Source of the DNA: a virus
Virus record (IMG/VR): IMGVR_UViG_3300000172_000001
Location: 38,431 to 102,430 of that record
Length of the DNA: 64,000 nt
Reading direction: 5' to 3' (one strand)
The notes beneath the pieces are model-generated. The model was given only the letters and a program-made list of their open reading frames with translations, was not told where the DNA came from and ran no database searches. The number at the start of each line of letters is the position of its first letter. Position 1 is the stretch's first letter. Made by a program: the position numbers and the translations under genes. Below, piece by piece: positions 361 through 49,794 of the stretch.

Positions 361-365
361 CATTG

Positions 366-441
366 TGGCCGGGACAGGGCTCGAACCTGTAGCTGACAGG
401 GATTTAGAGTCCCCCGCTCTATCCAATTGAGCTACCCAGCC
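366..441 (-). tRNA. Amber-decoding suppressor tRNA (anticodon CUA)
   Basis: Canonical cloverleaf: acceptor GGCTGGG with CCCGGCC, D-stem GCTC/GAGC, anticodon stem GGGGA/TCCCT and loop CTCTAAA. U33 fixes the anticodon as CUA, which pairs with the UAG stop codon. The T-loop is TTCGAGC and N73 is A. The amino acid cannot be deduced; it is a class I tRNA, so Tyr, Leu and Ser are unlikely by bacterial rules. It matches the in-frame TAG in the metallophosphoesterase at 11535-12242. Suppressor tRNAs of this kind are known from recoded phages. Confidence 0.85.
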
Positions 442-4020: not shown

Positions 4021-4022
4021 AT

Positions 4023-4374: not shown

Positions 4375-4376
4375 GT

Positions 4377-4989: not shown

Positions 4990-4992
4990 AAT

Positions 4993-6913: not shown

Positions 6914-6930
6914 CTGTTTTCCTTTTTAAA

Positions 6931-7329: not shown

Positions 7330-7487
7330 TGTTCCTTTCCTTTTTTACTGTTTAAATCATCTTGGATATTGTTATAAGTTTTTAACAATTTAGCTTTTTC
7401 TTTGGCTCGTTTTTGATCATCTCCAATAGCCCATAATTTTAGAAACCCAGTCCATGTGACTTGTGGTTTTTCTTTCTTTTCTTTCAT
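7326..7487 (-). CDS. Small lysine-rich protein, 53 residues
   Basis: Begins MKEKKEKPQVTWTG behind a GAGG ribosome site and is rich in Lys and Gln, with a central helix. It ends in TGA directly followed by TAA, so the product is 53 residues if TGA stops and 54 if it is read as Trp. The TGA overlaps the GTG of the next gene. No family recognised. Confidence 0.5.
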   Translation of the reverse strand: MKEKKEKPQVTWTGFLKLWAIGDDQKRAKEKAKLLKTYNNIQDDLNSKKGKEQ

Positions 7488-7505
7488 TTATCCTCTTTGT
7501 TATTA

Positions 7506-7630
7506 GTGGCTAGGACAGGACTCGAACCTGCATACGCACCATGCGTCCACTATATAGTATATCTACTGAAGTGTTACTGAGTCGAACAGCCTACTACGCG
7601 AAGATGTTTCCCAATTACATCACCTAACCA
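7506..7630 (-). tRNA. tRNA-like gene with about 38-base insert in the anticodon region
   Basis: Both ends fold well: acceptor TGGTTAG/CTAGCCA, D-arm GATGT/ACATC with GG in the loop, a variable-arm hairpin ACGCA/TGCGT and T-arm CAGG, TTCGAGT, CCTG. Between D-arm and variable arm there are about 55 bases where 17 are expected, containing a second T-loop-like TTCGACT and short inverted repeats. No normal anticodon arm is found. It could be an intron, an insertion or a fusion of two tRNAs. Confidence 0.4.
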
Positions 7631-7639
7631 TTTTTTTTG

Positions 7640-7712
7640 TGGGCCCTGCTGGACTCGAACCAGCATCCTACACATTATGAGTGTGTTGCTCAGCCAATTG
7701 AGCTAAAGGCCC
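7640..7712 (-). tRNA. tRNA-Met (CAU), elongator-like
   Basis: Acceptor GGGCCTT/AGGGCCC, anticodon stem ACACA/TGTGT, loop CTCATAA, T-loop TTCGAGT. Fully paired first base pair, so not an initiator; Met or lysidine-modified Ile2. Confidence 0.85.
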
Positions 7713-7715
7713 TGG

Positions 7716-7805
7716 AGGAGAGGACAGGGATCGAACCTGCAGACCCCCTTGCGGGGGCGCACCGGTTTTCAAGACCGGCAGAATACCATTCTCTTACACC
7801 TCTCC
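7716..7805 (-). tRNA. tRNA-Ser (UGA)
   Basis: Type II cloverleaf: acceptor GGAGAGG/CCTCTCC, anticodon stem CCGGT/ACCGG with loop CTTGAAA, long variable arm CCCCC/GGGGG, T-loop TTCGATC. Confidence 0.9.
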
Positions 7806-7899
7806 GTAAAGAGCGACGCGATACTTTTTTCTGCAGTTATTATATTGCGCGCTCCCATCTCCTTCTGCTCTTACACGCAAGCGATGGCAGATGAGTCTG
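7806..7899. other. tRNA spacer, no gene seen
   Basis: Ninety-four bases between tRNA-Ser and tRNA-Phe with no plausible ORF or strong hairpin; presumably processed out of a tRNA precursor. Confidence 0.4.
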
Positions 7900-7971
7900 T
7901 GGCGAAAGATGGAATCGAACCACCGTCGCGTGGATCTTCAATCCACCGCTCTACCCCTGAGCTACCCCGCC
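7900..7971 (-). tRNA. tRNA-Phe (GAA)
   Basis: Anticodon stem GTGGA/TCCAC, loop TTGAAGA, D-stem GCTC/GAGC, T-loop TTCGATT. The acceptor uses three G-U pairs. The last ten bases of the upstream protein gene overlap its 5' end, which supplies that gene's TAG stop. Confidence 0.9.
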
Positions 7972-8465
7972 GGAGTATTTAATAATTTAATTGCTTGTTC
8001 TACATGCTCATCTTGTAGACCTAAATCTGTTTTTGTTTGTACTAGTCGATCCATTAAATGCTCCATGTCTGAGTCATCGTCCAAAATTATGAAGGAATCG
8101 GCTCTTTCGTGGTAATGTTCTTTAGAGAACTCAGGATCTGCGTCGTATTCGGCATTATGCTCATCAAGCCATTGTTGAATTTCTATGCCTCTTCTTTTAT
8201 GTAGTCTTGGGGTACTCTTCCCTATTACGAAGGGTAAATTGAATCCCAAGGCAGCAAATAGATGTCTAAACATAAATGAATCACCATGAAGTCTCCAAGT
8301 TGAGGATACTACTATTTGTGCTCCAGTTGCGTCAATTATTTGCTTTAAGCGTTCTACTAGCGTTATGTCTGGAAGCCATACATTTCCTAACTTTTCTTCA
8401 TGTCGTTTATGTACCGACTCACGATTATTGAGTACGCCGTCGATATCTAAAAATATTACTTTCAA
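7962..8465 (-). CDS. HAD-superfamily phosphatase of the HAD_SAK type
   Basis: 167 residues. Motif I is FLDIDGVLN (both catalytic Asp present), motif II VSSTWR, and the acidic motif IV FIILDDDSDM. The DIDGVLN plus SSTWR pair is characteristic of HAD domains associated with RNA-repair polyproteins. The start is TTG, fused closely to the next gene upstream. The stop TAG lies inside tRNA-Phe, using its conserved TAGCTC; amber readthrough would add seven residues before a TGA. Probably a 3' or 2',3'-cyclic end-processing phosphatase (inference). Confidence 0.7.
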   Translation of the reverse strand: MKVIFLDIDGVLNNRESVHKRHEEKLGNVWLPDITLVERLKQIIDATGAQIVVSSTWRLHGDSFMFRHLFAALGFNLPFVIGKSTPRLHKRRGIEIQQWLDEHNAEYDADPEFSKEHYHERADSFIILDDDSDMEHLMDRLVQTKTDLGLQDEHVEQAIKLLNTPAG

Positions 8466-8822
8466 TTATTCAATTCCTTCTTCTTTTTTCCATTTCTGGT
8501 AACGTTCAACTCTTTCCAAATATATCTCATACTCGGCTCGAGTTCCGCCTTTGCACCCTCCGTGACCGTCTGATCTGATCTGCCAACCAACAAAGGCATA
8601 ATGATCCTTGCATTTAGCTTCATATTTCGCTAATTCGTCTTCTTCAATAGGAAAAAAGTCATAAATTTCTGTTAAACGTTTAAAGGTGTAGTTGTCATGA
8701 GCGTTTGCTCTTGTGCCGTCTGAATATTTTATAGGTTTATAGCTTCTATAGCAATTGTTTGATTCGTCTAATTCCCATATATAGGAATCGTCTGGCCTGA
8801 CTATATATTTTGGATTTTTCAT
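8466..8822 (-). CDS. Hypothetical protein
   Basis: 118 residues, rich in Tyr, Asp and Glu, with a C-terminal charged helix (EIYLERVERYQKWKKEEG). The N-terminus IVRPDDSYIWELDESNNCYRSYKP looks like a beta hairpin. No recognised motif. ATG start; it ends directly against the HAD gene. Confidence 0.5.
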   Translation of the reverse strand: MKNPKYIVRPDDSYIWELDESNNCYRSYKPIKYSDGTRANAHDNYTFKRLTEIYDFFPIEEDELAKYEAKCKDHYAFVGWQIRSDGHGGCKGGTRAEYEIYLERVERYQKWKKEEGIE

Positions 8823-8846
8823 TTTTTAGTTCCTAAGTTAATTGGG

Positions 8847-8929
8847 GTGTCGGACGGGATTTGAACCCGCATGAGGAGCAACTCCAACTCGGGTCACAGC
8901 CGAGTGCATTACCAAATCTGCCACCGACA
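8847..8929 (-). tRNA. tRNA with His anticodon (GUG) on a Leu-like type II body
   Basis: Anticodon stem CTCGG/CCGAG, loop CTGTGAC, so GUG. Unlike normal tRNA-His it has a long variable arm GGAG-TTG-CTCC and a Leu-like 5' half. N73 is C, the HisRS determinant, but position -1 is T rather than the G that bacterial tRNA-His genes encode. The phage also encodes a Thg1 enzyme (34739-35434), which adds exactly that G. Confidence 0.7.
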
Positions 8930-8932
8930 ACG

Positions 8933-9016
8933 GGCTGATGGTAGGATTCGAACCTACGTGGACTTTCGTCACCTGATTACAAATCAGGACCTTTCGACCG
9001 CTCAGGTAACACCAGC
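8933..9016 (-). tRNA. tRNA with Thr anticodon (UGU) on a type II body
   Basis: Acceptor GCTGGTG/CATCAGC, anticodon stem CCTGA/TCAGG with loop TTTGTAA (UGU), D-loop GAGCGGTCGAA typical of Ser/Tyr tRNAs, and a long variable arm closed by GAC-GAAA-GTC. Thr tRNAs are normally type I, so the amino acid loaded is uncertain; SerRS recognises long arms rather than anticodons. Confidence 0.7.
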
Positions 9017-9052
9017 TCTATTTAAAAGTGGGGACGCTTGGCCCCCACGTAT

Positions 9053-10198
9053 TTAAACCTTTAATATTTGTTTACATAACGCAATCTCGTCTGGATCGCC
9101 TGTATGTTTTCCCGGGGAATCTGACAACTTAATAGCTGGTTCCCATACATCATTTAATTTAACAGCGTTAATTTTGATTACCATATTCAATGGTGTAACG
9201 TCTGTATCATTAGTGAAGTTGGTACCAATTCCGTAAGCCGTTTTAATGTGCTTATTCACTTCTTTTTCGATGTGTACCGCTTTTTCGAGATTTAAACTGT
9301 CTGAAAAGATTATTAATTTACTTTTCGGATCAATGTTTAAATGCTCATAGTGGTTAATAATTTTGTTAGCAAACACAAGCGGGTCCCCACTGTCTTGCCT
9401 CACACCGTCAAATAGTTTAGAATACTTCATGGCAAATTCTTTAAGAAAAACGTCTGTAGTAAAGGTATCTGGTAAAGCTGTTCCCAGACTTCCTTGAAAC
9501 ACTTCTACCCATTTCTCTAATACCATAGTAGTTGCCATCTTGTAACCGTATAGGCGTGATAAGACCATATATACTTCGTGAGCTTGTGTACCTGTTGGGG
9601 TTAAATTATATTTTTTGGCAAAATGAACATTAGAGGTTCCTACCAATCCATGCTTTAAAATATTAAGAGTTTTATCATGTACGTCATAAGAGTGCCTTCG
9701 TCTAGTTCCGAAGTCGGCTACGCTTAAATGATTATCGTGTATAATTCTCAATTTTTCTATATTCTGTTTTTCTAACTCATACAGCGGGCTTAATTCCCCA
9801 TTAGACATCTCTGAAATAATAGCCATAATAGGTACTTCCCACAGTATAGTCCTATACCAGGGACCTCTAATACATATCTCAAATTGATGTTGTTTACCGG
9901 GTTCATAAATTACTTCTACTTCAGAAGAGTCATACGCATACCCTTTTAAAAAGTCCCTATACACGGGAGTGAAATAATAACATTTCTTTTTTAAAAAAGT
10001 TGCTTCTGAATCAGTTAACCGTAGTGATCCCATTGCGTTAATATTGCTTATCAATTTTGTAGCAAACGAGTCACTAAACTCAACTGGAGTTCTCAATATC
10101 CACTTGTATTCTACTTCCAGGTTTGGAAATTGCTGACAAACAAACATTTGTTGTGTAAATTTATATATGTCGTTATCTAAAATTGAATTAATTAACAT
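9053..10198 (-). CDS. pncB: Nicotinate phosphoribosyltransferase
   Basis: 381 residues, full length for PncB. Motifs: DFGTRRRHSYD near residue 160, GTSNVHFAKKY near 185, GTQAHEV near 200 and RQDSGDPL near 270, all in the PRPP/nicotinate site. It makes nicotinate mononucleotide from nicotinate, PRPP and ATP, the first committed step of the Preiss-Handler route, feeding NadD and NadE encoded at 4993-6913. The C-terminus SDSPGKHTGDP matches the PncB tail. Its start overlaps the next upstream stop by one base. Confidence 0.92.
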   Translation of the reverse strand: MLINSILDNDIYKFTQQMFVCQQFPNLEVEYKWILRTPVEFSDSFATKLISNINAMGSLRLTDSEATFLKKKCYYFTPVYRDFLKGYAYDSSEVEVIYEPGKQHQFEICIRGPWYRTILWEVPIMAIISEMSNGELSPLYELEKQNIEKLRIIHDNHLSVADFGTRRRHSYDVHDKTLNILKHGLVGTSNVHFAKKYNLTPTGTQAHEVYMVLSRLYGYKMATTMVLEKWVEVFQGSLGTALPDTFTTDVFLKEFAMKYSKLFDGVRQDSGDPLVFANKIINHYEHLNIDPKSKLIIFSDSLNLEKAVHIEKEVNKHIKTAYGIGTNFTNDTDVTPLNMVIKINAVKLNDVWEPAIKLSDSPGKHTGDPDEIALCKQILKV

Positions 10199-10491
10199 TA
10201 TTTGGTATCCTTTCCAGAGTGTATTGTACGTAATACGGTTAGGCTGGAAGAACCGTCAACCACCTCTATTATACAACGCTCGATAGCATAGTCTTTCAAT
10301 AAAAAGTGTCTTTCTGCTATCTTTCTCCAACCGTAGTTATCGTATCCTTGAACGTCTATTTTAGTGGGACTAACTTTAGTTATTGCCCACCTACGTTGTG
10401 TCCAGTATGACGGAATGTGGTCTTCGCCAGTACTAGCTCGTACCGTTATAACGTCATCTACTTTTAATTTAAACATCTGTTTCCTCTCCAT
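10198..10491 (-). CDS. Hypothetical protein
   Basis: 97 residues, beta-rich: VDDVITVRASTGEDHIPSYW then WAITKVSPTKIDVQGYDNYGW. This reads like an SH3/PUA-type barrel, a common phage small-protein fold, but no family is certain. ATG start overlaps the upstream gene; stop overlaps pncB. Confidence 0.45.
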   Translation of the reverse strand: MERKQMFKLKVDDVITVRASTGEDHIPSYWTQRRWAITKVSPTKIDVQGYDNYGWRKIAERHFLLKDYAIERCIIEVVDGSSSLTVLRTIHSGKDTK

Positions 10492-10657
10492 TAAGTTTAT
10501 CGAGTTTTCTACAAATTTGTAATAGAAGTATATCTGTAAGGGTTAGTCTGCCATTTCCAAATTTGGTTTCCAAAATAAGTTGTAAATCCTCATCTATGGT
10601 AGCTTCTAAAGGTAGTATAACCTCACTCATTAATAAACCTTCTCGAGTATTTCCCAA
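10469..10657 (-). CDS. Hypothetical small protein
   Basis: 62 residues, acidic with a Leu-rich helix (IDEDLQLILETKF then LTDILLLQICRKLDKLN). A second in-frame ATG nine codons in (MSEVILPLEATI) lies right at the end of the pilin-like gene and may be the true start. Overlaps both neighbours. Unknown. Confidence 0.45.
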   Translation of the reverse strand: MGNTREGLLMSEVILPLEATIDEDLQLILETKFGNGRLTLTDILLLQICRKLDKLNGEETDV

Positions 10658-10965
10658 CGTGCCTCGGGAATATTAATTACTTGAACTATTTCGCCATTGA
10701 CAAAAAAAGTTAGTTTGTTGTCACCTATTGACACACGATCCGCTAAGTATTCTTTGTCATATTTAATATTATAAGCTTTGTCATAAACTGTAAGAGTATA
10801 GGTAGTTCTAGAATCATTTCCATAACCTAATTCTGTTTTCGTACCATTCGCATCTATAACACCAGAATTAAAAAGCTTTGGTATTGCCACTGAGCCTATA
10901 ATCCCTGCAATTACTAGAACAATAATTAGTTCTATTATTGTAAATCCTTTTTTACTTCCATTCAT
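10630..10965 (-). CDS. Type IV prepilin-like (pseudopilin) protein
   Basis: 111 residues. The N-terminus is KKGFTIIELIIVLVIAGIIG, a textbook class III signal: basic leader ending in Gly, cleavage before Phe/Thr, Glu at +5 and a hydrophobic helix. The rest is a small beta domain (TYTLTVYDKAYNIKYD, LTFFVNGEIVQVI), shorter than major pilins and similar in size to minor pseudopilins. Prepilin peptidase of the host would be needed. It overlaps the NADAR gene upstream. A phage-encoded pilin is unusual; its role (competition with host pili, exclusion) is speculative. Confidence 0.8.
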   Translation of the reverse strand: MNGSKKGFTIIELIIVLVIAGIIGSVAIPKLFNSGVIDANGTKTELGYGNDSRTTYTLTVYDKAYNIKYDKEYLADRVSIGDNKLTFFVNGEIVQVINIPEARWEILEKVY

Positions 10966-11413
10966 TTTCTTTTAGTTCCTTTCTTACTTTCATTAATGCT
11001 TTTCCTAAAAGGTTTGTACCTTTACCATTTTTTCCGATGCCCCATATTGCGTCGTTCCATTCAGCCGCGTCTTCTATTAATTCTGCATCTTGTGTACATA
11101 GTAAAATCTTTTTGTAAAGATCTATTTTGAATTTTTCTCTTAAGCACATAACCATAATGTCATATTTTACTTCTTCCCAATCTGGGCGAAGATTTACTTT
11201 ATTACCCGCACGTTTAGATTTGCCAGGGGTTTTTAACTGTGCTATTTCTTTACGTATTGTGTTATTAAATGTTTTATGTGCTTGAAACGCATGCTCTACT
11301 GTTGGATATTCAATACCTTCTATAGTAATAGGGGAATGTGCAAAATTAGAAAAATATTGATCATAGCCTGATGGCTTCTTTGCGGAGAAAATTATTTGGT
11401 TTGTGTTTTTCAT
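10952..11413 (-). CDS. NADAR (YbiA-like) family protein
   Basis: 153 residues. YFSNF near residue 21, PTVEHAFQAHKTF near 38, the RPDWEEVKYDIM region and C-terminal GKGTNLLGKALMKVR are the defining NADAR motifs. NADAR proteins act on N-glycosides of ADP-ribose or riboflavin intermediates; some remove ADP-ribose from guanine in DNA, as the antitoxin side of DarT1-NADAR. Together with the macro-like and NAD genes this fits reversal of host ADP-ribosylation (inference). Confidence 0.85.
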   Translation of the reverse strand: MKNTNQIIFSAKKPSGYDQYFSNFAHSPITIEGIEYPTVEHAFQAHKTFNNTIRKEIAQLKTPGKSKRAGNKVNLRPDWEEVKYDIMVMCLREKFKIDLYKKILLCTQDAELIEDAAEWNDAIWGIGKNGKGTNLLGKALMKVRKELKENEWK

Positions 11414-11443
11414 TTGTTAGTTTGATTTTTATTATTTAAAAGT

Positions 11444-11527
11444 GTGGGCAGAGAAGGATTCGAACCTCCGAACCCCGTAGGGACCAGATCTACAATCTGG
11501 CGCTTTTGACCGCTCGGCCAGCTGCCC
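11444..11527 (-). tRNA. tRNA-Tyr (GUA)
   Basis: Type II tRNA: GGGCAG acceptor, anticodon stem CCAGA/TCTGG with loop TTGTAGA (GUA), variable arm CCCTACGGGG, T-loop TTCGAAT, N73 A. Confidence 0.9.
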
Positions 11528-11534
11528 AACTTAA

Positions 11535-12242
11535 TTATCGTTCTCTTCCATGGTAGTCGTTCGGATATAAATCTTCTGATAAGTCTGATTGCCAGTACTC
11601 ATGCGTATTTACATCCATGATAGTAAGTTTTCCTTCCCAACCTGATCCGGTGTCTAACATCCATAGATTGGAAATATTTAAAGGTTTATCCGTTCCAAAC
11701 ATTCCTGTAGTTGTATGCCCAACGAATACCTCTTTATAATCTTTAAATTCACGCTTTTGAGTTACGTAAATTTTTGCCACTTCAATGATGTGACGATTCC
11801 AATACAAATTATACGGATCCTGATCCCGGATAGGGACCTTTTGATCGAATCCTCCGTGTACGTAGATTTTGTTCTCATCATCGATGTGGTAAAATACTGT
11901 TTTGTTACGTAGATAATGTAGGTGCTTAGTTCTCCATTCTAGTGGGGCTGACACGTAGCTGGCAATTGTAGCCATACCACCTTGTCTAGTCCACAATGAG
12001 GGAGTTTGTCCATATTCTAACCACCCAAGTAGCCATACGTCGTGATTACCTATAACCTATATTAAATTCTTAATCTTTAAAAGTTCTTCGAAACACTTTG
12101 CCGTATCTGGCCACCCGTCATTTATATCGCCAAGAAAGACTAATGTATCCTCCTCATAATTGAAGTTAGAACGTTCGAAACATTGGAGCATGCCCTGGTA
12201 ATTACCATGTACGTCTCCCAGTACAAATATTTTATTTTTCAT
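11535..12242 (-). CDS. Calcineurin-like metallophosphoesterase with one in-frame TAG
   Basis: One reading frame of 236 codons interrupted only by a TAG at 12057-12059. Upstream: FVLGDVHGNYQGML and LVFLGDINDGWPD, the first two metal motifs (GDxHG, GDxxDxG). The TAG lies directly before VIGNHDVW, the third motif (GNHD), and VHGGF and VGHTTTG follow downstream, so both halves are one protein phosphatase of the lambda/PPP type. The position before VIGNHD is often Tyr or Phe in relatives. Either the amber tRNA at 366-441 decodes it, or the gene is a recent point-mutant. Confidence 0.8.
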
Positions 12243-12460
12243 CCTTCATCCTTTGTAATGTGGTTTATACAGGCAGCTATTCTACTATCCTGGTAAAATG
12301 GATCCATTGCTGTAGCTCTAATCTCTTCTGCTACTTCCGGATAAAGTATATAAAGTGCATTAAAAATACATTGCCCACGTCTCCAGAGGGGGTTGTTTAG
12401 TCCCATTTTATTTGTTGTTTGAAAGAGGGTTTTCATTTCCTCTTGAGTTAATTTATTCAT
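12239..12460 (-). CDS. Hypothetical protein
   Basis: 73 residues from ATG at 12460 (MNKLTQEEMKTLFQTTNKM). This start overlaps the upstream TAA by one base, which is more likely than an upstream in-frame codon. Helical, with W-RRGQCIFNALYILYP and AACINHITKDEG. Small phage proteins of this appearance are common but uncharacterised. The stop TGA overlaps the phosphatase ATG. Confidence 0.5.
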   Translation of the reverse strand: MNKLTQEEMKTLFQTTNKMGLNNPLWRRGQCIFNALYILYPEVAEEIRATAMDPFYQDSRIAACINHITKDEG

Positions 12461-12645
12461 TACCAACGTCTCCCGCACTCACACTCCCAGCGTCCTTTAT
12501 AAACTTTGGTTGCTAATAGTCCGCAACTATGGCATGTCATTTTTGGGGCTATACGGGTATTTATTCCGAATAGTACTCCTTTTAAAAAGGTGTCAATTAC
12601 TTGGAAAAGCCCGGTAGTAATTTTATCTTTAGTTTCTTGTTTCAT
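12460..12645 (-). CDS. Small zinc-ribbon protein
   Basis: 61 residues starting MKQETKDKITTGL. The C-terminal half has CHSCG and then CECGRRW, a four-Cys zinc ribbon with Trp/Arg tail that may touch nucleic acid. The N-terminal half is an amphipathic helix. The start follows GAGAAATAATT and lies just downstream of tRNA-Pro. Confidence 0.55.
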   Translation of the reverse strand: MKQETKDKITTGLFQVIDTFLKGVLFGINTRIAPKMTCHSCGLLATKVYKGRWECECGRRW

Positions 12646-12667
12646 AATTATTTCTCTTTTTTTTCTG

Positions 12668-12741
12668 TAGCACGAGTGGGCGTCGAACCCACCTTCCCAG
12701 GTTTCCAAAACCCAAGAGCCTCGCCCCCGGTCACCGCACTA
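12668..12741 (-). tRNA. tRNA-Pro (UGG)
   Basis: Acceptor TAGTGCG/CGTGCTA, anticodon loop TTTGGAA (UGG) on a weak stem TGGGT/ACCTG, T-stem GTGGG/CCCAC with loop TTCGACG. Confidence 0.8.
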
Positions 12742-12752
12742 AACCTATTTAG

Positions 12753-12989
12753 CTACCTAACTTTCCTAGCTACCGCTATTATTTCATGTACAAATACATC
12801 TCCCAATTCATAGCTGCCATAAGTATAGGGAGACTTAACTCCGCAAAACCATCTAGCGCCTTCTTTGTTATCATCTATTTGCCATTTTTTTAAAACTTTC
12901 CATTCCCAAGACTGATCTAAAGTTCTCCATATTTCATATGGGTTGTCAAGAGGTCTGGTCTTTCCACATAAATTCTTCTGTCTTGTCAT
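12753..12989 (-). CDS. Hypothetical protein
   Basis: 78 residues from MTRQKNLCGKTRPLDNPYEIW. The upstream in-frame extension runs through tRNA-Glu, so this ATG is chosen. Compact and Trp-rich (WRTLDQSWEWKVLKKW). Ends in TAG. The pattern NPYEIW then W-EWKVLKKWQ resembles small phage proteins of unknown function. Confidence 0.5.
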   Translation of the reverse strand: MTRQKNLCGKTRPLDNPYEIWRTLDQSWEWKVLKKWQIDDNKEGARWFCGVKSPYTYGSYELGDVFVHEIIAVARKVR

Positions 12990-13015
12990 TTTATTTTTCT
13001 GGTTTGTTACCTTCG

Positions 13016-13087
13016 TAGCGCATAGGAGAATCGAACTCCTGTACCCAGACTGAAAACCTGGTGTCCTAGCCATTAGACGAATGCGCC
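13016..13087 (-). tRNA. tRNA-Glu (UUC)
   Basis: Acceptor GGCGCAT/ATGCGCT, anticodon loop TTTTCAG (UUC) on stem CCAGG/TCTGG, T-loop TTCGATT. Confidence 0.88.
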
Positions 13088-13099
13088 GTTATTAATGAG

Positions 13100-13173
13100 T
13101 GGAGAAGAGGGGATTTGAACCCCTGACCCTCTGCGTGCAAAGCAGTTGCTCTCCCAGACTGAGCTACAACCCC
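13100..13173 (-). tRNA. tRNA-Ala (UGC)
   Basis: Anticodon stem ACTGC/GCAGA, loop TTTGCAC (UGC), D-stem GCTC/GAGC, T-stem AGGGG/CCCCT. Two T-T mismatches weaken the acceptor. Confidence 0.85.
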
Positions 13174-13179
13174 ATTAAT

Positions 13180-13416
13180 TTATTCTGTTTGTTCTGTTGC
13201 TTGTTTTTCTTCTTCTGCCATGACTACTTCTGATTCGGCCCATGAAAGTATTAAAAGATACCACACGATTCCACAAATGGCATAACAAGCTAGTCCATAT
13301 GTTTTTGCCCATCCGGCTTTCTTTGTATACTTTGGCATTAGCGACATTACTAGGAACATAGTTCCAAGCCCAAATATAATTCCCACTGGTATGAGAAGTA
13401 CTATAATTCCCATCAT
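13180..13416 (-). CDS. Small membrane protein, two TM helices
   Basis: 78 residues. Hydrophobic segments at about residues 4-26 and 40-60, then an acidic tail rich in Glu and Gln (MAEEEKQATEQTE). Starts at a double ATG behind AAAGGACAACG. Might be a holin-like or host-envelope-modifying protein, but nothing specific supports that. Confidence 0.6.
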   Translation of the reverse strand: MMGIIVLLIPVGIIFGLGTMFLVMSLMPKYTKKAGWAKTYGLACYAICGIVWYLLILSWAESEVVMAEEEKQATEQTE

Positions 13417-13441
13417 AACGTTGTCCTTTCTTTTTATTTCG

Positions 13442-13514
13442 CAGAGCGCACGGGGATCGAACCCGCAGTCTCCGGCGTGACAGGCCGGCGTGTTACCATT
13501 AACACTTCCACCCT
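13442..13514 (-). tRNA. tRNA-Asp (GUC)
   Basis: Anticodon stem CCGGC/GCCGG, loop CTGTCAC (GUC), N73 G as expected for Asp, T-loop TTCGATC. Confidence 0.88.
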
Positions 13515-13523
13515 ATAAATTAG

Positions 13524-13595
13524 AGCCTAGGGAAGGAGTTGAACCTCCATTTCTCTTAGCGGACTAAGAGCGTCTTACCATTAGACGACCACGGC
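13524..13595 (-). tRNA. tRNA-like gene with 8-base/closed anticodon loop
   Basis: D-arm GTCT/AGAC with GG, T-arm GGAGG, TTCAACT, CCTTC and variable region are normal. The anticodon arm CTCTTAG/CTAAGAG pairs over seven bases and closes only TCCG, or, with a normal five-pair stem, leaves an eight-base loop. Either a frameshift-suppressor-type tRNA (Gly or Arg register) or a non-decoding tRNA mimic. Two acceptor pairs are mismatched. Confidence 0.55.
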
Positions 13596-13597
13596 GT

Positions 13598-13670
13598 TGG
13601 TTGGGGGTGTGGGATTTGAACCCACATTCGCCTGCCTCTGCAGACGTCCTTTACGTTGGATGAGCCCCCA
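13598..13670 (-). tRNA. tRNA-like gene with closed anticodon arm, CCA encoded
   Basis: Acceptor TGGGGG/CCCCCA followed by A-CCA, T-arm GTGGG, TTCAAAT, CCCAC. The anticodon arm CGTCTGC/GCAGGCG pairs over seven positions and closes AGAG, with no U33 and no usable anticodon; the D-loop lacks GG. It shares an encoded CCA with the two initiator-like genes near 4.1 kb. Confidence 0.5.
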
Positions 13671-13707
13671 TTAATTTTTTCTCTCTATGTCAAAAAACTA
13701 GAATCTT

Positions 13708-13947
13708 CTATAGAAGGTTCTTTTGTTTTAAAATACGATTTACATGTAGTTTTGTAATTACAGGCTGTTTATTTTGACTAGCCATATGTAACGCAATTTT
13801 AACCTCTTTACCTTTGTGCCCTGGTTTGCTTGTTGCAAATTTTACAATTCGTCTTGCTATGTTCATTTCCCGTGTTTCACGCCCCAGGTATCGTTGGCAT
13901 TTTATTTTGTCTCTACCCTGTTTGTTAGAGTTTGATTTTTGTGACAT
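13708..13947 (-). CDS. Hypothetical basic protein
   Basis: 79 residues, rich in Lys, Arg, Asn and Gln, e.g. IARRIVKFATSKPGHKGKEV and a C-terminal KLHVNRILKQKNLL. A DNA- or RNA-binding helix-turn-helix is possible: KEVKIALHMASQNKQPVITKLHVNRIL has a plausible two-helix spacing. Ends in TAG, five codons before a TGA. Confidence 0.5.
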   Translation of the reverse strand: MSQKSNSNKQGRDKIKCQRYLGRETREMNIARRIVKFATSKPGHKGKEVKIALHMASQNKQPVITKLHVNRILKQKNLL

Positions 13948-13956
13948 TAGCTTTCC

Positions 13957-14352
13957 TTATTTTTTAAATCTTTTTTCCAATTGTTTATAAAGCTCAAAAT
14001 CGTCTTTTTCTTTCTTATTCTTCCGTCTTGTCGCGTTTCGCTTTCTAGTTATTTCAGATTTTTTTGCTCTATCTTTTAATACATTCGTTCTAATAGTAAA
14101 TTCCTCATCCGTCTCTTTTCGACTCACGCTAACCTCTAATTCGTCGAGCTCTATCCTATCGTCCCACGAGTTGAACTGGCTACAAACTGCGGTAAACCTC
14201 ACATCTGGGTTGTCTACCCCTGTCTGTTGTCTAGAAAGAGCTATGATGTGCCTTAGTACCTCTTGTACGTCTTCAAGTTTTCCTTCTAGATCATCATAAT
14301 CATACGGGTGTGCTATTATTATTTTAACTGTTTTCTTTTCATAACTTGCCAT
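13957..14352 (-). CDS. Hypothetical protein
   Basis: 131 residues: an alpha/beta N-terminal part (VKIIIAHPYDYDDLEGKLEDVQEVL then RFTAVCSQFNSWDDRIELDELEVSV) and a long Lys/Arg-rich C-terminal helix. No catalytic motif recognised. ATG start, TAA stop. Confidence 0.5.
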   Translation of the reverse strand: MASYEKKTVKIIIAHPYDYDDLEGKLEDVQEVLRHIIALSRQQTGVDNPDVRFTAVCSQFNSWDDRIELDELEVSVSRKETDEEFTIRTNVLKDRAKKSEITRKRNATRRKNKKEKDDFELYKQLEKRFKK

Positions 14353-14374
14353 TGTTTTTTATTGGTTTTATTTG

Positions 14375-14445
14375 AGCAACTAGAGAGAATCGAACTCTCA
14401 TCGTCTGAGTGGAAGTCAGAAGTCTTACCGTTGGACCATAGCCGC
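14375..14445 (-). tRNA. tRNA-Gly (UCC)
   Basis: Acceptor GCGGCTA/TAGTTGC, anticodon stem TCTGA/TCAGA, loop CTTCCAC, T-loop TTCGATT. The upstream protein gene ends inside it. Confidence 0.9.
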
Positions 14446-14694
14446 TTTAATTGGTAAAGCTGTGACAATTTCATTAGTTTTCTTATCATATACTACTTTG
14501 TATCTAATGCTATTTTGCTCAATAATCATAACTAACCTGTGTCCTACTTTTTCTAGAACGCTTACTCCTTGGTCGTTATACTCGTTCCTAATTCTATTCA
14601 ATAATTCTTTTCTTAGCTTTTTGGTCAACGTAATATCATAACGCTCTTCAAATCTTTTTACAGCGTGTTGTCGTTGATTGTGTTTATAACTCAT
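14425..14694 (-). CDS. Hypothetical protein whose end overlaps tRNA-Gly
   Basis: 89 residues from MSYKHNQRQHAVKRFEERYD (ATG at 14694 after GGGCAAC; the in-frame extension upstream lies in a tRNA). Pattern H-x-x-KRFEERY-x-I-x-LT and a following beta sheet GHRLVMIIEQNSIRYKVVYD recalls small phage proteins with a BrnT/HigB-like fold. The last 21 bases, including the TAA, lie in the 5' half of tRNA-Gly(UCC). Function unknown. Confidence 0.55.
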   Translation of the reverse strand: MSYKHNQRQHAVKRFEERYDITLTKKLRKELLNRIRNEYNDQGVSVLEKVGHRLVMIIEQNSIRYKVVYDKKTNEIVTALPIKAAMVQR

Positions 14695-14715
14695 GTTGCC
14701 CTTTCTATTTATTTG

Positions 14716-14786
14716 AGCAGCTAGACGGATTTGAACCGACATTCCAACCATGGCAAGGTTGTGTCCTACCATTAGACGATAGCCGC
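14716..14786 (-). tRNA. tRNA-Gly (GCC)
   Basis: Same GCGGCTA acceptor as the UCC isoacceptor, anticodon stem CAACC/GGTTG, loop TTGCCAT, T-loop TTCAAAT. Likely a duplicate that diverged in anticodon. Confidence 0.9.
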
Positions 14787-43012: not shown

Positions 43013-44060
43013 GGAAGATGAGAGTGGCTGAGGGGTAAACTCTTCTTCCGAGGGATGCAACTCCCTTTGCGAGACTTATTAATCCCCGCACCACCTACGT
43101 TAAGTAGGAAGCCCTATCTTAAATTCTTTTCCAAATTGAAGGCTCTAGCCTTGCAACTCCTTCGGATAGACACCCAACGTTTTTATTACGTCTTTGGCCC
43201 AGTTTTATGAAGTTTGTACTTTTCCTGAGAATACAGTTAGTACGGTATATCTTTAAAGGGATCATTTCAATTCCCCTCGTTTCCACGCAGACTTACGTCG
43301 TCGTAATACACCAATCACAGCTCCAGGTATGGAGCCAGGTCTTTCCACTTACATTAACTCTACAATTTCACGACTATCTTAGCTGCCGCCAAGCTTAACC
43401 GCTTCCTTATAAATACTGCTGCAACCCTTGCGAGGCGCAGAGCTCGACGTTATACAGGCCGATATTAGTGATCTTTTATTATAAGCAGCCAGGAATCTAA
43501 TTGCTTTCATTATAAATGACGAGAATCGAACTCGTGATCTACGGATTAATATTCCGTTGCTCTACCAACTGAGCTACATTATGGTTTTTCTGTGATTGGG
43601 AGGACGCGTTCCCGGTTGTGGTTACGTAGTTTTCAGCCACATAATGCCACTCGCCCTCGTAAGTCATTAGCCATGACAGCCTCCGATCCTTCATCATAGT
43701 AGTTGTCTCTTCTTGACTTAGAAGCCAATGAAGGCCTCAATATCTTGATCCCGACAAACTATATAATTGATAACCCGCTTGACAGACAGGATATCTTGCG
43801 ATTACTATACAGACATTTCTGCCTACCCCTCAGGGGATACGTATCTCGACCTTCACGCCTCGCAGTTAGCCTGGAGTGTTGGACTATTTTTTACAAGATA
43901 AATAGAAGTTCGCAGTGTATAAATGTTTGCACTCCCGAAGGAGAACAACGCAATGCCAGGTATAATTTCACAGACCCGACTGCTTTTAGTCCCATTGCTG
44001 GGGTTATCTTTAACTGGATGTCATACCACCCAGGTGCTAATTAAGGCTAAGCCTTGATTG
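43013..44060 (-). ncRNA. Large structured RNA candidate B with embedded tRNA-like domain
   Basis: About 1.05 kb without a credible gene. It starts just after a GGTATAAGAA promoter (44066), ends at a large terminator and contains a tRNA-like fold at 43511-43583. Many hairpins, e.g. AGGCTAAGCCT near 44045 and CTCCAGG/CCTGGAG near 43321. Within it, GTGAAATTG and GGAAAGACC occur 16 bases apart (43341-43374), both short matches to 23S rRNA domain V. The size and embedded tRNA fit the GOLLD class of phage RNAs; that assignment is a hypothesis. The plus strand shows one 113-codon frame here that I reject. Confidence 0.55.
43511..43583 (-). tRNA. tRNA-like domain with AUU anticodon inside RNA B
   Basis: D-stem GCTC/GAGC, anticodon stem ACGGA/TCCGT, loop ATATTAA, T-arm ACGAG, TTCGATT, CTCGT are canonical, but only four of seven acceptor pairs form. 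An A34 anticodon (AUU) is atypical for bacteria. Probably a structural domain of the large RNA rather than a free tRNA. Confidence 0.5.
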
Positions 44061-44065
44061 CGAAA

Positions 44066-44075
44066 TTCTTATACC
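44066..44075 (-). promoter_or_regulatory. GGTATAAGAA promoter motif for RNA B
   Basis: Minus-strand TGGTATAAGAA, immediately upstream of the candidate RNA. Confidence 0.55.
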
Positions 44076-44104
44076 AGAAAATATTGTTTTTTAAAAGACA
44101 TTGG

Positions 44105-44115
44105 GTTATATTCAA
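44105..44115 (+). promoter_or_regulatory. TTATATT-class motif
   Basis: GTTATATTCAA three bases before the ATG at 44118. If it is a promoter the transcript would be almost leaderless or start at a later ATG. Confidence 0.35.
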
Positions 44116-44117
44116 GT

Positions 44118-45617
44118 ATGGAAAGAAATTATGAAGTATTTAGAGCTAGGGTAGTTTCAGTAGAGAGTCCTGATGTAAACGCCCTAGATAAAAAAGACAT
44201 ATATATTCAGGCAATAGATGAGACAGATCCTGAGAAGACGTATTTGGCGTTACCTCCGATATTTATACCAACTTCTGCATTTGGGTCGGGAGTAGTATCA
44301 GTGCCTCCTGAAAATCAGGAGTGTTTGGTGGCCTTGGACAAATGAAATAATGTTGCACAGATTCTTACTTATATCCCCTCAGGACTATCTTCGGCCTTCG
44401 GCGGTTTATCTGCAGAAGCTGTACCAGAGGGGGGAGTGTTATTAAAAATAGGTGGAAAGAACAAAACTAACTTCCTAATGGCTCCAGATGGATTCTTTAG
44501 TTGGTTTTCTAACGCCTTCGCTGAAATAACTTTGGATGGAGCTTATAAGAAACTAAATATTACAACTAAACGATATGAAAGACGAAGCGCAACTAATTTT
44601 GTTAGAGACTCATATCATCCTAAGAAATCTGCAGGAATAGATAAAGGAGCTACATCACATTTAGAAGTATATTCAAAGTTTGATGATACTACTGGGTATC
44701 TTGACCATATCTCAGAAAACACTGAGACTCACCGCAGTATTCCTTTCAAGCACCAATTCACAGATCAAACTATTATAAAGTCTGGATACATACCTCATGT
44801 TAAGAATTTAAAAGGCACGCCTTATTCCCATTTGTATCAATTAGAGACTAGACAAGCTACTGGAGGTTCTAAACAGAAGAATACCTATACTAAGTTACAT
44901 CTAGGGTATCAAGGGGCTACAGATCTATTTGATATAGGAGAAGAACACCCGGCAGGTTCTTTATTTCATTGGGTATTTAAACGAGCAGTAACAAATAATA
45001 ATAGCTCAATGATAAATAGATTTGGGAAATTAGAGTCCGGGAGTTTAGCGGGAGAGTTATATAGACATCAAATATATGATGGAACTTTTGATGCTACAGC
45101 CTGGAAAGCTGGGCAAGGTTACGATTATACTTTTATCAACACCGGAATTAAACAGCAATATGTAAGTAGTTTTGGCAAGTTAAACACGGGTAGAATATGA
45201 GGAAGACACATCCATCAGCTAGAAACCACAACTAATGGTAAAATGTATACTAAAGAGTTTGGCGGTACAGATATATTAAAGACAACAGTGCAGTCCGGGG
45301 ATGTTGCAACTCCAGAGTTGAAATTGACAAAGACGTTAAATAATGAGGCATACACTGTTAAACTGAATCTAGGAGATACTACTCTTACTATAACTTTGGA
45401 TAGCAGCGGAATAACTCTTGACGTGCCTGAAGGTAAAAATGTGTATCTCGGAGGCTCAGAGGGTCAGACGTTAGTTACTAAAGAGTTTGTTACAGAATTA
45501 TACGCGGGACATACACATGGTACAGGAGTGGGACCTTCGTCACCTCCAATAATTCAGCCAAGTATTTATGATCCTTTGGATGAGAATATTTATACTGTGA
45601 AGACTTTATCAGAATAA
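44118..45617 (+). CDS. Baseplate spike/hub-type virion protein with two recoded TGA codons
   Basis: 499 codons in one frame with TGA at 44343-44345 and 45198-45200 read as Trp. The N-terminal SVESPDVNALDKKDIYIQAI then YLALPPIFIPTSAFGSGVVSVPPENQECLVAL is an OB-like domain; the C-terminus LYAGHTHGTGVGPSSPPIIQP is the H-T-H-x-GP-x-x-PP signature of baseplate assembly/spike proteins (gpV or gp45-like), preceded by beta-helical repeats. Three Trp also use TGG. ATG chosen for frame continuity. It overlaps the next gene at TAATG. Confidence 0.75.
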
Positions 45618-46159
45618 TGTTAAGTGAAACTAATTTAAAGACTGAGCTAATCGCGGAGTTTTATAAGTATTATTATTTAGAAGGCGATAACCGAATAGCT
45701 TATACAGTTGATGAAAAAAGCATCAGGTTAGGGGAGATTATTAGTGAATATATGAGCGAGGCTGTAGTAGGAGTTACTGGAATCACTACAAACTTTTCTA
45801 ATGTAGAAATAACTATACCCGAATGACCAGAGGTTGATGTATCTTTAACTTTTATATCTAACCCATTGGCGGAGATTTCAGGGTCTAGAGGTATATCTGA
45901 TGAAGATTTACTAGCGGAAGCTACTACATTAGTACCTACAGCAGTAGGATTTATAACTTATACTCCTGTAGGACCAATAATACCCTTTATAACACCCACA
46001 TGAGGTAGCAGCAATGCAGAGTTAATAGCCCAAACTGTGGAGATCTTTTGTGAAGACTTGGCAACTAGTATCCATAACTATGTAAAACAAATAAAGTTTC
46101 AAATGACAGGAACGTCGGCAAGTGGTGTAGTACTTACAGTAGTATGGACTATAACGTAG
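45617..46159 (+). CDS. Virion protein with two recoded TGA codons
   Basis: 180 residues reading TGA at 45824-45826 and 46001-46003 as Trp. Ends at TAG (46157-46159). LKTELIAEFYKYYYLEG then SEAVVGVTGITTN and a C-terminal beta region. It follows the spike gene with a one-base overlap, so a baseplate or tail component is likely, but no family is recognised. If TGA were a stop it would be 69 residues with orphan coding sequence downstream. Confidence 0.6.
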
Positions 46160-46187
46160 ATAATACTTGACTAAAAACCTAAGCTTA

Positions 46188-46198
46188 GTTATATTGAA
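46188..46198 (+). promoter_or_regulatory. TTATATT-class motif
   Basis: GTTATATTGAA, 42 bases before the large structural gene. A 12-codon frame (MLEETKLVINWR) lies between and ends at that gene's ribosome site. Confidence 0.4.
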
Positions 46199-46239
46199 AT
46201 GTTAGAAGAAACAAAGTTAGTGATTAATTGGAGATAATA

Positions 46240-48417
46240 ATGGACAACTTATTTATAAAGAACTCTTTTACTAAAACAGCGTCATACTCAGTGGATATGG
46301 ACGCAACGAAGTGGGTTAGAAATGTAATTACGTATTTTTACGAACAATATCCGTTCGCTCAAAATCAGCCTGCAGTGGTTCAGTGGAAGAAAAAAGATAG
46401 TACAAAGGGATATGCGGTAGGGGTATTAAAGATATCCGGGGCATCCATACCAGTAGTAATCAAAGATTGGAAATTATCTCCTTTAGACATAGTTATGGCA
46501 GGTGGAAGAACTTTACCACTTAATACTGAGGTGTTAAGAACTATGTTAACTTCGCCAGGAGCATTTGTAGGAGTAGCGTCGTCTCCTCCTAAATCAGGAC
46601 TGGACATGTTCTCACAATTACAGTATTCTCCTGATGGGAGTATAAACAATTCAGCTAGCGAGTCTAGTTCACAAGAACGACCTGCTAAAATAGCTTCATT
46701 TATTGACAAAATTGAGCATATAGACAAAAAAGCCGTTGTTGAAATACTAAATACTGTTAAAAACAACCCAGAAATCCATAATAACTTCAAAAAGACCGGA
46801 AGATTAGACGTTTTAGACAAACTAGCGTCAAAAACAGAGAGTCAAGAAGAAATCGTGGATTCTTTCATTAGGGACCTTGATATAGATAGACAGTTAGTTA
46901 TTAAAGACTCTTTAGGTAATCACACAGTTAAACAAGCTAATTCTAACATAGATTTTGTATGAGAACTCCCTATTAAGGCTTCAGAAGCTGAAGAATTTGA
47001 GATATTAACTGCTTCAAGTTTCCAAGAAAAGACTGCTGAGTCTGTAGATGCTAATTGCTACAAGATTTGGGACACTGATAGACACCTTATGGTAACATCG
47101 GACAAAGATTATCATGATTTTAGTAGAAATGATGTGAAAACGGCTGAAGCATTTACTTTAGAAGAAGACCAACCACAAGTTGGTGATCTTGGCGTTTGAA
47201 AATTTGGAGAATCAGTCTCTGAACCTTTTGAAGTACTAGGAATGGACAAAGTATCGTCATATTCTTCAAATCTTTATAAACTAGACGGAGGTCCAGGGTA
47301 TCTTAGCATCAGTAAGAATAAAGATTGGGTTATTTTAGAGAAATTAGGACAAAAGTCTTCAGAAAATGTAGAAATAGACGGAGATTTTCCTAAAATAGGA
47401 GATTTCGGAGCGTGAGTTATGCCTGATGGCAGTGCCACTAAGCCTTTTGAGATTAGAGAACTATTACAAGACTTAGAAGCTTCTAGCAATAAACAAGTAC
47501 AAGTAGCAGGTTGGGATGGATTGCAGAAGATTGCGTATTACCTGACTGAAATGCCTGTTAAGAGTCTGATGGACTCAGAGAATGGCGGAAAGTTACTACC
47601 TAAAGAAGCAAAGTTTGTTAAATTAGGCAAAGAATTAAGAAAAGTTTCTGAAGTTAGCGAGGATAATCAAGATACCCCATTAAAAGTTACAGGATGGGCC
47701 GGAAGAGAAAAAGTATCTTATTACATCGACAACACAACTACTTCTGAAGCAAAATATGTAGAAAAAGAATCTAGTTGGTATTTATCTAAGGACGTGAGCT
47801 TCATTAAGCTAGGATCATACTTACAAAATGAAATACCACATACTGTTAAAGTAAATAAACACACAGTTGGAAAAGACTCTGTAGGCCTTTATTACTTAAA
47901 AGGTGCAGAGTTCTCTAAATATGCAGAAAACAGCCATGAATTACGTGATTTAAGCCTCTCAGAGGCAGAATGATCATTAATTCATTGTGGAGCAACCAAG
48001 ACTGATATAAATAAGGCGGCAATGTTGCTGAAAGGCACTGAAATGCTAATTGCTTGTCCAATTGAAGCTCCTATACCTCCAAAAGTGTTTATTGATAAAA
48101 TAGCAGAAACTTATGAAGATAGTACTAATGACATAGAGATGTTAAAAGTAGACTTAGTAAAAGAGGCTGCGGTTTTATCTGATAAAAGCACTGTAGATGC
48201 TGTATTGTCTCTTGGAGCTATCAACAAACAGAATATTATAGAATACATAGCTCTATTACCTCAATATGAGATGATTATGAGTGAATTAGCCAAAATGCTG
48301 CTTATGACTAGGTTAGGTATGAGGCATCTTCCGGAGGAAGCCGTAAAGAACGCCATGGATTCAGTAACTAAAATAGTACTGTTGCTTATGGGCGTTAACA
48401 AACTGTACTCTAATTAG
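46240..48417 (+). CDS. Large virion structural protein with four recoded TGA codons
   Basis: 725 residues from ATG after TTGGAGATAATA, with in-frame TGA at 46960-46962, 47197-47199, 47413-47415 and 47971-47973. Two TGAs fall at the same place in an internal repeat: VGDLGV-TGA-KFGES...PFEVLGM and IGDFGA-TGA-VMPDG...PFEIREL, so the codon stands for a conserved residue, most simply Trp. TGG is also used (TKWVRN, KDWVIL). Ends in TAG followed at once by the next ribosome site. Probable tail/baseplate or internal virion protein; no family recognised. Confidence 0.7.
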
Positions 48418-48425
48418 GAGATACT

Positions 48426-48842
48426 ATGAGATCTTTAGGGGATATGGCGCGACAGATGACTTCATTGCAGAAATTAGTGGTTAGCCAGAATGATCAAGAA
48501 GGCGTAGACGAGGTTGTATATGAAAAGGCGTACGAGTCTACTGCAGGGGCAGATTCTATAGGGCGAAGTATTTATAACGAAGAAGATGGATCAGTAATGA
48601 TATTATCTTTGCCAGAAGGAACAGAGTTTCCACCACATACTCACGAAAATCCAATAGTAGAGTATGGAATCATATTAAAGGGGAGTATAAGAATTACACA
48701 AGAAGGAGTAGATGACGTAATCTATTCTTATCAAGACTGCGTAATTCTTAAAGATGAGGTTATGCATTCTGGAGTAGCTTTAGAAGATACGAAGATAATC
48801 GCAATAACAATCCCACAAGAGTTAGGATACCCTGGAGCTTAG
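48426..48842 (+). CDS. Cupin-domain protein
   Basis: 138 residues. SLPEGTEFPPHTHENPIVEYGIILKGSIRI and YQDCVILKDEVMHSGVALED are the two cupin motifs with metal-binding H-x-H-x(n)-E and H. Cupins bind small ligands or catalyse oxidations or isomerisations. Lying among virion genes it may be a structural cupin fold. No in-frame TGA. TAG stop. ATG preceded by TTAGGAGATACT. Confidence 0.7.
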   Translation: MRSLGDMARQMTSLQKLVVSQNDQEGVDEVVYEKAYESTAGADSIGRSIYNEEDGSVMILSLPEGTEFPPHTHENPIVEYGIILKGSIRITQEGVDDVIYSYQDCVILKDEVMHSGVALEDTKIIAITIPQELGYPGA

Positions 48843-48871
48843 TCTCCACATTATAAAATAGGAATATTAGA

Positions 48872-49339
48872 ATGACTGATAAAAAAGGACCAATGAGCTG
48901 AGAAGAGTTTTTCGTTAAAATCGGAGACAAAGTGGATGAGCATGAAAAGACGTTAGTGACTTTTACTAACGGTAAGTTTAAATCATTAGAAGATAATGTA
49001 GATACTTTAAAAGAGACAGTTGGGGGCATTAAGAATGATATGTCTGAGATTAAAAGAAGACTTCTAGATCCTGAAACCGGCGTAATTCACAAAATGAATG
49101 AAGCTACGGTATATGTAGGCAAATTACAGAAAGAAGAAACGTTAGACCAGATCAAATTAGTCAAAAAAGCTAATACGAACGTTTCACGGTTATTCTGGCT
49201 AGTTATGACATTTGTTATAGGCTCTTTCTTATCTCAGGTCATACCAGACACTTGGTATCCATATTCAGATAAATATACACCAAAAATAGAAAATGTTCAG
49301 CCTGAACCAGTGATAATACCTGATACTATCGCTAATTAA
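48872..49339 (+). CDS. Coiled-coil membrane protein with one recoded TGA
   Basis: 155 residues. MTDKKGPMS then TGA (48899-48901, Trp) then EEFFVKIGDKVDEHEK. A long coiled coil (VDTLKETVGGIKNDMSEIKRRL) leads to one TM helix (RLFWLVMTFVIGSFLSQVI) and a periplasmic tail with Pro and Glu. The layout resembles XhlA-type holin partners or spanin-like anchors. If TGA stopped, translation would end after nine codons, so this gene needs recoding from its start. Confidence 0.65.
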
Positions 49340-49363
49340 TATTTGTATAATACCTAGAATCTA

Positions 49364-49375
49364 ACTATATTAAAG
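49364..49375 (+). promoter_or_regulatory. TTATATT-class variant
   Basis: ACTATATTAAAG, 17 bases before the ATG at 49392 and resembling the site at 61927. Confidence 0.35.
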
Positions 49376-49391
49376 AAAGGGGGTAATTCCA

Positions 49392-49517
49392 ATGATAATA
49401 CACTGGGGTCTCTCTATAAAAGACAATTTGAAGAATAAAGTATTAAATCAGTATAAAAATAATGCACAATTCGCCTCTCTCGATTACAAAAGCAGCTGCA
49501 ATACAGTTAGAAACTAA
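49392..49517 (+). CDS. Small protein overlapping the IscA-like gene
   Basis: 41 residues from MIIHWGLSIKDNLKNKVLNQ with a strong GGGGG ribosome site. Overlaps the next gene in another frame by 56 bases, so it may serve for translational coupling. No family. Confidence 0.4.
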   Translation: MIIHWGLSIKDNLKNKVLNQYKNNAQFASLDYKSSCNTVRN

Positions 49518-49794
49518 GAAAATTAGCTTAAATCACCCAAAATCCCACATATTAAACATAAAGTTGGCGCCAAATTACGAAACTGAGATGGCACACTTCG
49601 ATTTTACATATAAAGACATAAAAGATATTAAAAATATAGTGTATGATGATGACTATGCACACACCATGGATTCGGAAACTGCTATGTATCTTCTTGGCAG
49701 TACATTAGATTATAAGGATAATAGACTTATATTCGATCATATGGAGCTAGATGGCTTAAATAACTTTAATAATATTGATAATAATAGCAATTAA
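49462..49794 (+). CDS. A-type iron-sulphur carrier-like (IscA/HesB) protein
   Basis: 110 residues. ISLNHPKSHILNIKLAPNYETEMAHFDFTY, then DSETAMYLLGSTLDYKDNRL matches the HesB/IscA fold (id-x-x-s-x-x-x-L-x-G-x-x-iDY). The three cluster-binding Cys of IscA are absent, as in several phage homologues, so it is unlikely to carry a standard Fe-S cluster. Starts at ATG; ends with Asn-rich tail. Function in the phage unknown. Confidence 0.55.
   Translation: MHNSPLSITKAAAIQLETKKISLNHPKSHILNIKLAPNYETEMAHFDFTYKDIKDIKNIVYDDDYAHTMDSETAMYLLGSTLDYKDNRLIFDHMELDGLNNFNNIDNNSN

Follow-up and report, generated by a model that had tools for sequence, protein, structure and literature searches.

The window analysed here is a stretch of 64,000 nucleotides corresponding to bases 38431-102430 of a 102,430-bp IMG/VR virus record, and its positions are converted to those of a 205,518-bp contig by adding 105028. 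On the minus strand, at 11535..12242, it carries a gene of 235 codons for a predicted calcineurin-like phosphatase (NinI / lambda-PP type), which runs from an ATG at 12242 to a TAA terminator (11537-11535) and contains a single in-frame TAG at codon 62 (12057..12059). The start of this gene overlaps the 3' end of the upstream ORF. The preliminary description, which did not state that the gene lies on the minus strand, had noticed two open segments parted only by this TAG, and the position of the TAG just before the sequence VIGNHD. Both observations hold, and the two segments form one frame in which all the motifs of the enzyme come together: the 61 codons before the TAG (12060..12242, minus strand) encode DxH (D10, H12) and GDxxDG (38-43), and the 173 codons after it (11538..12056, minus strand) encode GNHD (65-68), whose G lies three codons beyond the TAG, followed by H129 and GHT (175-177).

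With the TAG read through, the 235-aa product scores 43.7 bits against Pfam Metallophos PF00149 (cut-off 21.5) and matches PHROG 246 ("NinI-like serine-threonine phosphatase") end to end (residues 2-228, E 6.5e-44). A single domain spans both segments, and the TAG therefore splits a domain and does not mark a gene boundary. With the TAG taken as a sense codon, D10, H12, 38-GDINDG-43, G65-D68, H129 and H176 all align with invariant columns of the family. Phage homologues sharing 40-44% identity occur in Cellulophaga and Leptolyngbya phages, and in the PDB the lambda phosphatase 1g5b gives the highest-ranking sequence-profile match (E 4.8e-22). An AlphaFold model built from an alignment of 30 relatives gave one confident fold (pLDDT 94.4), in which residue 62 lies within the strand 59-63 leading into GNHD; the top PDB fold matches (Foldseek, TM about 0.7) include lambda PP and the phosphatase domain of bacterial Pnkp. 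By its motifs, its profile score and the matching predicted fold, the product is thus a putative calcineurin-like metallophosphoesterase.

Termination at the TAG would leave a 61-residue stub that lacks GNHD and all residues beyond it. Re-initiation yielding the C-terminal part was considered and rejected, since the first possible restart, a TTG at 11996, is situated 21 codons downstream of the TAG and already past GNHD. The enzyme is therefore predicted to exist only where UAG is decoded as an amino acid, in agreement with the earlier proposal that it may be made only under suppression.

The presence of the TAG itself is confirmed. The codon, within gene DNA that is 100% identical, recurs in contigs (62-206 kb) from four other IMG metagenomes (3300004111, 3300025584, 3300025602 and 3300025659), and across the 102,430 bp that the record of the window shares with the 205,518-bp contig there is no mismatch. 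It is very unlikely that a sequencing or assembly error conceals a sense codon at position 62, because the gene is the same to the last base in five contigs, which come from at least four metagenomes; we found nothing in favour of such an error and regard it as ruled out for practical purposes. All five TAG-bearing contigs represent one strain.

The preliminary description had suggested that the residue at this position be compared in homologues. All 76 viral relatives have a sense codon there, and none has a stop. Nine residue types are represented (A in 24 relatives, Y in 15, S in 9, F and K in 7 each, P in 6, L in 5, C in 2 and M in 1), and homologues from named phages together with two genome contigs add D. 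Position 62 has no catalytic role, and nearly any amino acid inserted there would be accepted. Tyrosine occupies it in many of the closest relatives and may be the ancestral residue, a single base change being sufficient to turn TAT or TAC into TAG.

The part of the gene that follows the TAG shows no sign of decay. None of the 29 post-TAG columns conserved at 95% or more among 61 non-redundant relatives deviates in this phage; at 85% conservation 4 of 42 columns do so, and about one fifth of the relatives deviate equally or more. Post-TAG divergence relative to pre-TAG divergence stands at the 24th percentile of the family. This pattern fits continued translation of the post-TAG segment, yet a young nonsense mutation would look alike. 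The main rival to read-through is accordingly that the TAG is such a mutation, which has recently inactivated a dispensable phosphatase now being lost, the CUA tRNA discussed below being unrelated to this gene or inactive for it. The mutation may be young, as all the contigs belong to one strain. Moreover, in protein scans, two against viral contigs and one against genome contigs, no close relative beyond that strain shared the TAG, and the next relatives had about 50% identity or less. The undecayed post-TAG segment counts against this alternative, as does the fixation of the gene in five contigs alongside an intact CUA tRNA.

The preliminary description also reported a tRNA with a CUA anticodon at 366-441. 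This gene was recovered on the minus strand by both programs, by ARAGORN at 365..441 and by Rfam at 366-441 (58.9 bits, which places it with the highest-scoring tRNAs of the array). It is intact and well formed, having a class I body, A73 and the anticodon loop CUCUAAA, which makes it a candidate amber suppressor. The label "tRNA-Pyl" given by ARAGORN reflects only the CUA anticodon, and pyrrolysine was rejected, as the body is that of an ordinary class I tRNA. By known bacterial identity rules, Gln, Trp and Tyr are less likely as the amino acid carried, given A73 and the class I body, and Lys stays among the candidates. The nearest tRNA within the phage is, weakly, tRNA-Trp(CCA). The anticodon arm was matched in 18 viral contigs, 15 of them outside this phage; the bodies of these tRNAs were diverse and the 18 matches indicated no isotype. 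No CUA tRNA was found in eight contigs of relatives.

The phosphatase gene is embedded in a tRNA array, as shown by the tRNA-Tyr (GUA) called by ARAGORN at 11444..11527 (minus strand), only 7 bases after the phosphatase stop. tRNAs occur at 277-14786 and 27781-29122 of the window (minus strand) and at 99775-134150 and 172209-172281 of the 205,518-bp contig, and the approximately 30 tRNAs of the phage together cover all twenty amino acids in addition to the CUA and UCA anticodons. Several less regular elements were also observed here. For a tRNA-like gene at 13523-13595 (minus strand) ARAGORN reported an anticodon of only two bases (cc), suggesting a six-base anticodon loop. Degenerate tRNA-like stretches that ARAGORN did not call lie between called tRNAs at 3770-4000 and 4300-4375 of the window (minus strand), and a lone consensus T arm (4312-4329, minus strand) adjoins a hairpin resembling one with a CAT anticodon.

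If amber suppression were both efficient and lasting, it should leave its mark on the number of in-frame TAG codons and on the back-up stops behind TAG terminators; neither mark was seen. No other gene split by a TAG was found in the 205-kb contig, the remaining candidates having been rejected as they possessed their own start just past the TAG or were antisense to real genes. TAG terminates 46 of the 260 called genes (about 18%), and behind these terminators there is no excess of back-up stops: the next TAA or TGA follows at a median of 10 codons (within 5 codons in 35% of cases), compared with a median of 7 codons (45% within 5) behind TAA terminators. Global recoding of TAG (table 15 type) was rejected, given one in-frame TAG against 46 TAG terminators. 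With a single amber gene, and TAG stops lacking extra back-ups, suppression cannot be both efficient and old. The solitary position of this gene, the ordinary use of TAG as a terminator and the lack of a TAG-sharing relative in the collections searched all tell against read-through, and the normal function of TAG as a stop elsewhere likewise favours a null mutation.

When the 205-kb contig was searched for in-frame stops flanked by coding sequence, UGA, not UAG, proved to be the recoded stop of this phage. The 68 genes called in four plus-strand blocks (44133-76746, 86987-94273, 148951-154822 and 172934-201709 of the 205,518-bp contig) contain 138 in-frame TGA and 140 TGG codons, with only 2 TGA stops. 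These blocks contain structural, packaging and RNA polymerase genes; we call them "late" because the terminase, portal and head protease are encoded there, the label being taken from gene content. The block at 148951-154822 falls within the window (43923..49794, plus strand), where 10 TGA codons affect 4 of 6 called genes. In contrast, among the 131 genes of the minus-strand block that holds the phosphatase (contig 94331-172841), there are 16 TGA terminators and a single in-frame TGA. No other gene disrupted by TAA or TGA was found in this early block, which speaks against the loss of the phosphatase through a nonsense mutation.

The terminase gene (phrog_675, E 2.2e-69, residues 8-507) is broken by TGA, as is that of the RNA polymerase, which lies outside the window (contig 86987-93046, plus strand) and contains five TGA codons under the standard code. 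Its single 2019-aa protein matches several PHROG families of RNA polymerase beta subunits. In two relatives (57-58% identity) without in-frame TGA, the five sites are occupied by W, W, W, W and Y; the alignment with W at four of five indicates that UGA stands for Trp in these genes. Based on the in-frame TGA codons and this alignment, the phage is one with late-gene recoding of UGA as Trp (table 4 type). A possible, if odd, candidate for the suppressor is a 97-nt tRNA with a UCA anticodon, encoded outside the window at 70650-70746 of the contig (plus strand). It has a long variable arm, a long D stem, G73 and a Trp-like anticodon loop (CUUCAAA), and G73 together with this loop makes charging with Trp plausible. 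Selenocysteine was rejected for this tRNA, since UGA aligns with Trp and the marginal score on the Rfam tRNA-Sec model (48.5 vs 47 bits) is equalled by the tRNA-Ser of the phage; the "SeC" label of ARAGORN is based on the anticodon. No match to the RF-1/RF-2 family was obtained on the 205-kb contig that would point to a phage release factor.

Taking these observations together, we consider read-through by the phage CUA tRNA to be the best single account of the codon, and we hold it with a little more than even confidence. Under this account, the phage would encode a lambda-PP / NinI-type metallophosphatase with UAG at codon 62, at which the CUA tRNA would compete with release factor 1, so that a fraction of ribosomes would produce the full 235-aa enzyme and the others an inactive 61-aa stub. 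One substitution, most likely in a Tyr codon, would probably have created the UAG in a phage with the CUA tRNA already in place. The codon would be tolerated because the strand residue it specifies has no catalytic role and can bear many different side chains. On this view it is an isolated, perhaps incipient, use of amber, the real recoding programme being that of UGA as Trp in the late genes. What commends read-through is that the two segments are in register and yield one confident predicted fold, that constraint after the TAG is normal, that the CUA tRNA is well formed and that all five contigs, identical to one another, carry the TAG. The tolerance of position 62, and the decoding of another stop, UGA, as Trp by the same phage, point in the same direction. 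We infer from these features the expression and charging of the CUA tRNA, the read-through itself and the history of the codon. Inactivation by a recent nonsense mutation is nevertheless a serious possibility, although one that we would sooner doubt than accept.

A further proposal of the preliminary description was a regulated amber switch, with the enzyme kept off until the CUA tRNA accumulates, as its early activity might be harmful. Such a design finds some encouragement in the separation of UGA code use by gene block in this phage, and in the suggestion, made for other phages in work cited in PMC11210395, that late-gene recoding serves as a timing control. The putative suppressor and its target are, however, encoded on one strand within one tRNA-rich block, about 11-11.6 kb apart, and from this position they probably share an expression class. 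The shared block, the single amber gene, the retention of the TAG in 0 of 76 relatives and the use of UGA, not UAG, in the separate block-wise programme argue against a designed amber switch, as does the ordinary use of TAG as a stop. We consider it unlikely, and harm from early expression of the phosphatase is a conjecture. The preliminary interpretation as a whole is therefore partly supported: the sequence features that it described are present, and the possible switch was not borne out.

Partial recoding of stop codons is known from other phages. CrAss-like phages use UGA as Trp or UAG as Gln in late genes, with suppressor tRNAs (Yutin et al. 2021, PMC7886860), and stop recoding has been predicted more widely in phages (PMC11210395), including jumbo phages (PMC13037316); in-frame stops with signs of read-through have also been described in prokaryotic genes generally (PMC7918605). 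The phage studied here resembles the alternatively coded crAss-like phages in that recoding is confined to part of the genome and accompanied by suppressor tRNAs (PMC7886860). In those phages, conserved hallmark genes, TerL among them, have taken up TAG (PMC7886860), whereas here a lone accessory gene in the early block carries it, in a phage with a separate UGA system. One phage is reported to have gained a CTA tRNA and then begun accumulating TAG (Yutin et al. 2021, PMC7886860).

The nearest parallel is Lera phage, which together with ct1yV3 belongs to the zeta crAss-like phages of the genus Echekvirus (PMC12386605). Both share with the present phage a large tRNA set, TCA and CTA suppressor tRNAs in one genome, and a UGA that means Trp in the genes for terminase, RNA polymerase and structural proteins (PMC12386605). 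In Lera phage and ct1yV3, TAG is rare and always soon backed by another stop, and amber is unused (PMC12386605); the present phage differs in that TAG ends about 18% of its genes with no extra back-ups and occurs once in frame. Its terminase is like those of SPO1-like and Arash-like phages, not crAss-like ones. By analogy, the CTA tRNA that appears unused beside an active opal system in Lera phage would argue against read-through, and the apparently inactive CTA tRNAs of zeta crAss-like phages lend support to a null mutation (PMC12386605). As regards the phosphatase, the NinI-like / lambda Ser-Thr phosphatases (PHROG 246; PDB 1g5b; Cellulophaga phage phi38:1, with 40.5% identity) share its motifs and fold, and none of these relatives compared has a stop at the codon-62 position. 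The phage hence belongs to a known kind, that with partial stop-codon recoding; what distinguishes it is an isolated amber gene beside opal recoding, with TAG otherwise a stop.

If UAG 62 is decoded, it would show the capture of a second stop codon starting in a lineage that recodes UGA, with UAG tolerated in an accessory gene while it ends about 18% of all genes. It would also offer a clean example from nature, with a single gene, codon and tRNA, in which the earliest step of a code change could be measured. Either way, the use of one standard code breaks the terminase, RNA polymerase and structural genes of this phage at UGA, and its phosphatase at UAG.

Another element of the window looks like an unannotated phage RNA imitating the factor-binding centre of the ribosome. 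At 3553-3766 (minus strand), a sequence resembling helix 43 of the GTPase-associated centre of 23S rRNA is combined with a helix-44 signature. The Rfam 23S rRNA model matches 3708-3766 on this strand (E 7.5e-7) with 34.5 bits, below the gathering score of 50. The helix-43 sequence, GGCUUAGAAGCAGCC, begins at about 3752, and the helix-44 signature, GGCGUAACAGC, is found 129 nt downstream of it. The former differs little from helix 43, and the 23S rRNA of 5,375 E. coli genomes contains a match to it. Phages GAP32, CBB, Aeromonas 4_4572 and pf16 also carry the element, in stretches that lack annotation, and in pf16 it lies within a tRNA array.

A pattern scan of viral contigs revealed 45 distinct copies of this element, not one of which continues as ordinary rRNA. 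Covariation is seen in the stem, in which 78 of 102 cells are paired, whereas none of 2000 shuffles exceeded 62. Only 7 of the 45 copies overlap an ORF of at least 100 aa, compared with 62% of random sites. tRNAs lie within 2 kb of 29 of 44 copies. In 22 of 46, the helix-44 signature GGCGUAAYAGC lies between 89 and 258 nt downstream, with about 0.01 expected by chance according to our estimate. A 23S-like match in Paenibacillus phage Pd_22F was set aside as plain rRNA, and short records named as Staphylococcus and Listeria phages were left out of the set. In the literature searched we found no published description of such an RNA.

A bearing of this RNA on stop-codon read-through is a conjecture. 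It would form part of a two-code reading, in which UGA as Trp in late genes and UAG in the early phosphatase are served by separate suppressor tRNAs, the mimic (3553-3766, minus strand) titrates release factors, EF-G or L11 and so aids read-through, and the phosphatase is gated by the takeover of translation. We give this combined reading little credence.

Two other structured RNAs were observed. A GOLLD RNA occupies 43222-43659 of the window (minus strand) and matches Rfam RF02032 over its full length (E 2e-34) with 124.8 bits, below the gathering score of 150; inside it, at 43511-43582, is a tRNA with the anticodon AUU that ARAGORN missed. Outside the window, at 96897-97268 of the 205,518-bp contig (minus strand), the phage encodes a tmRNA with the tag peptide GRPAVKLAA.
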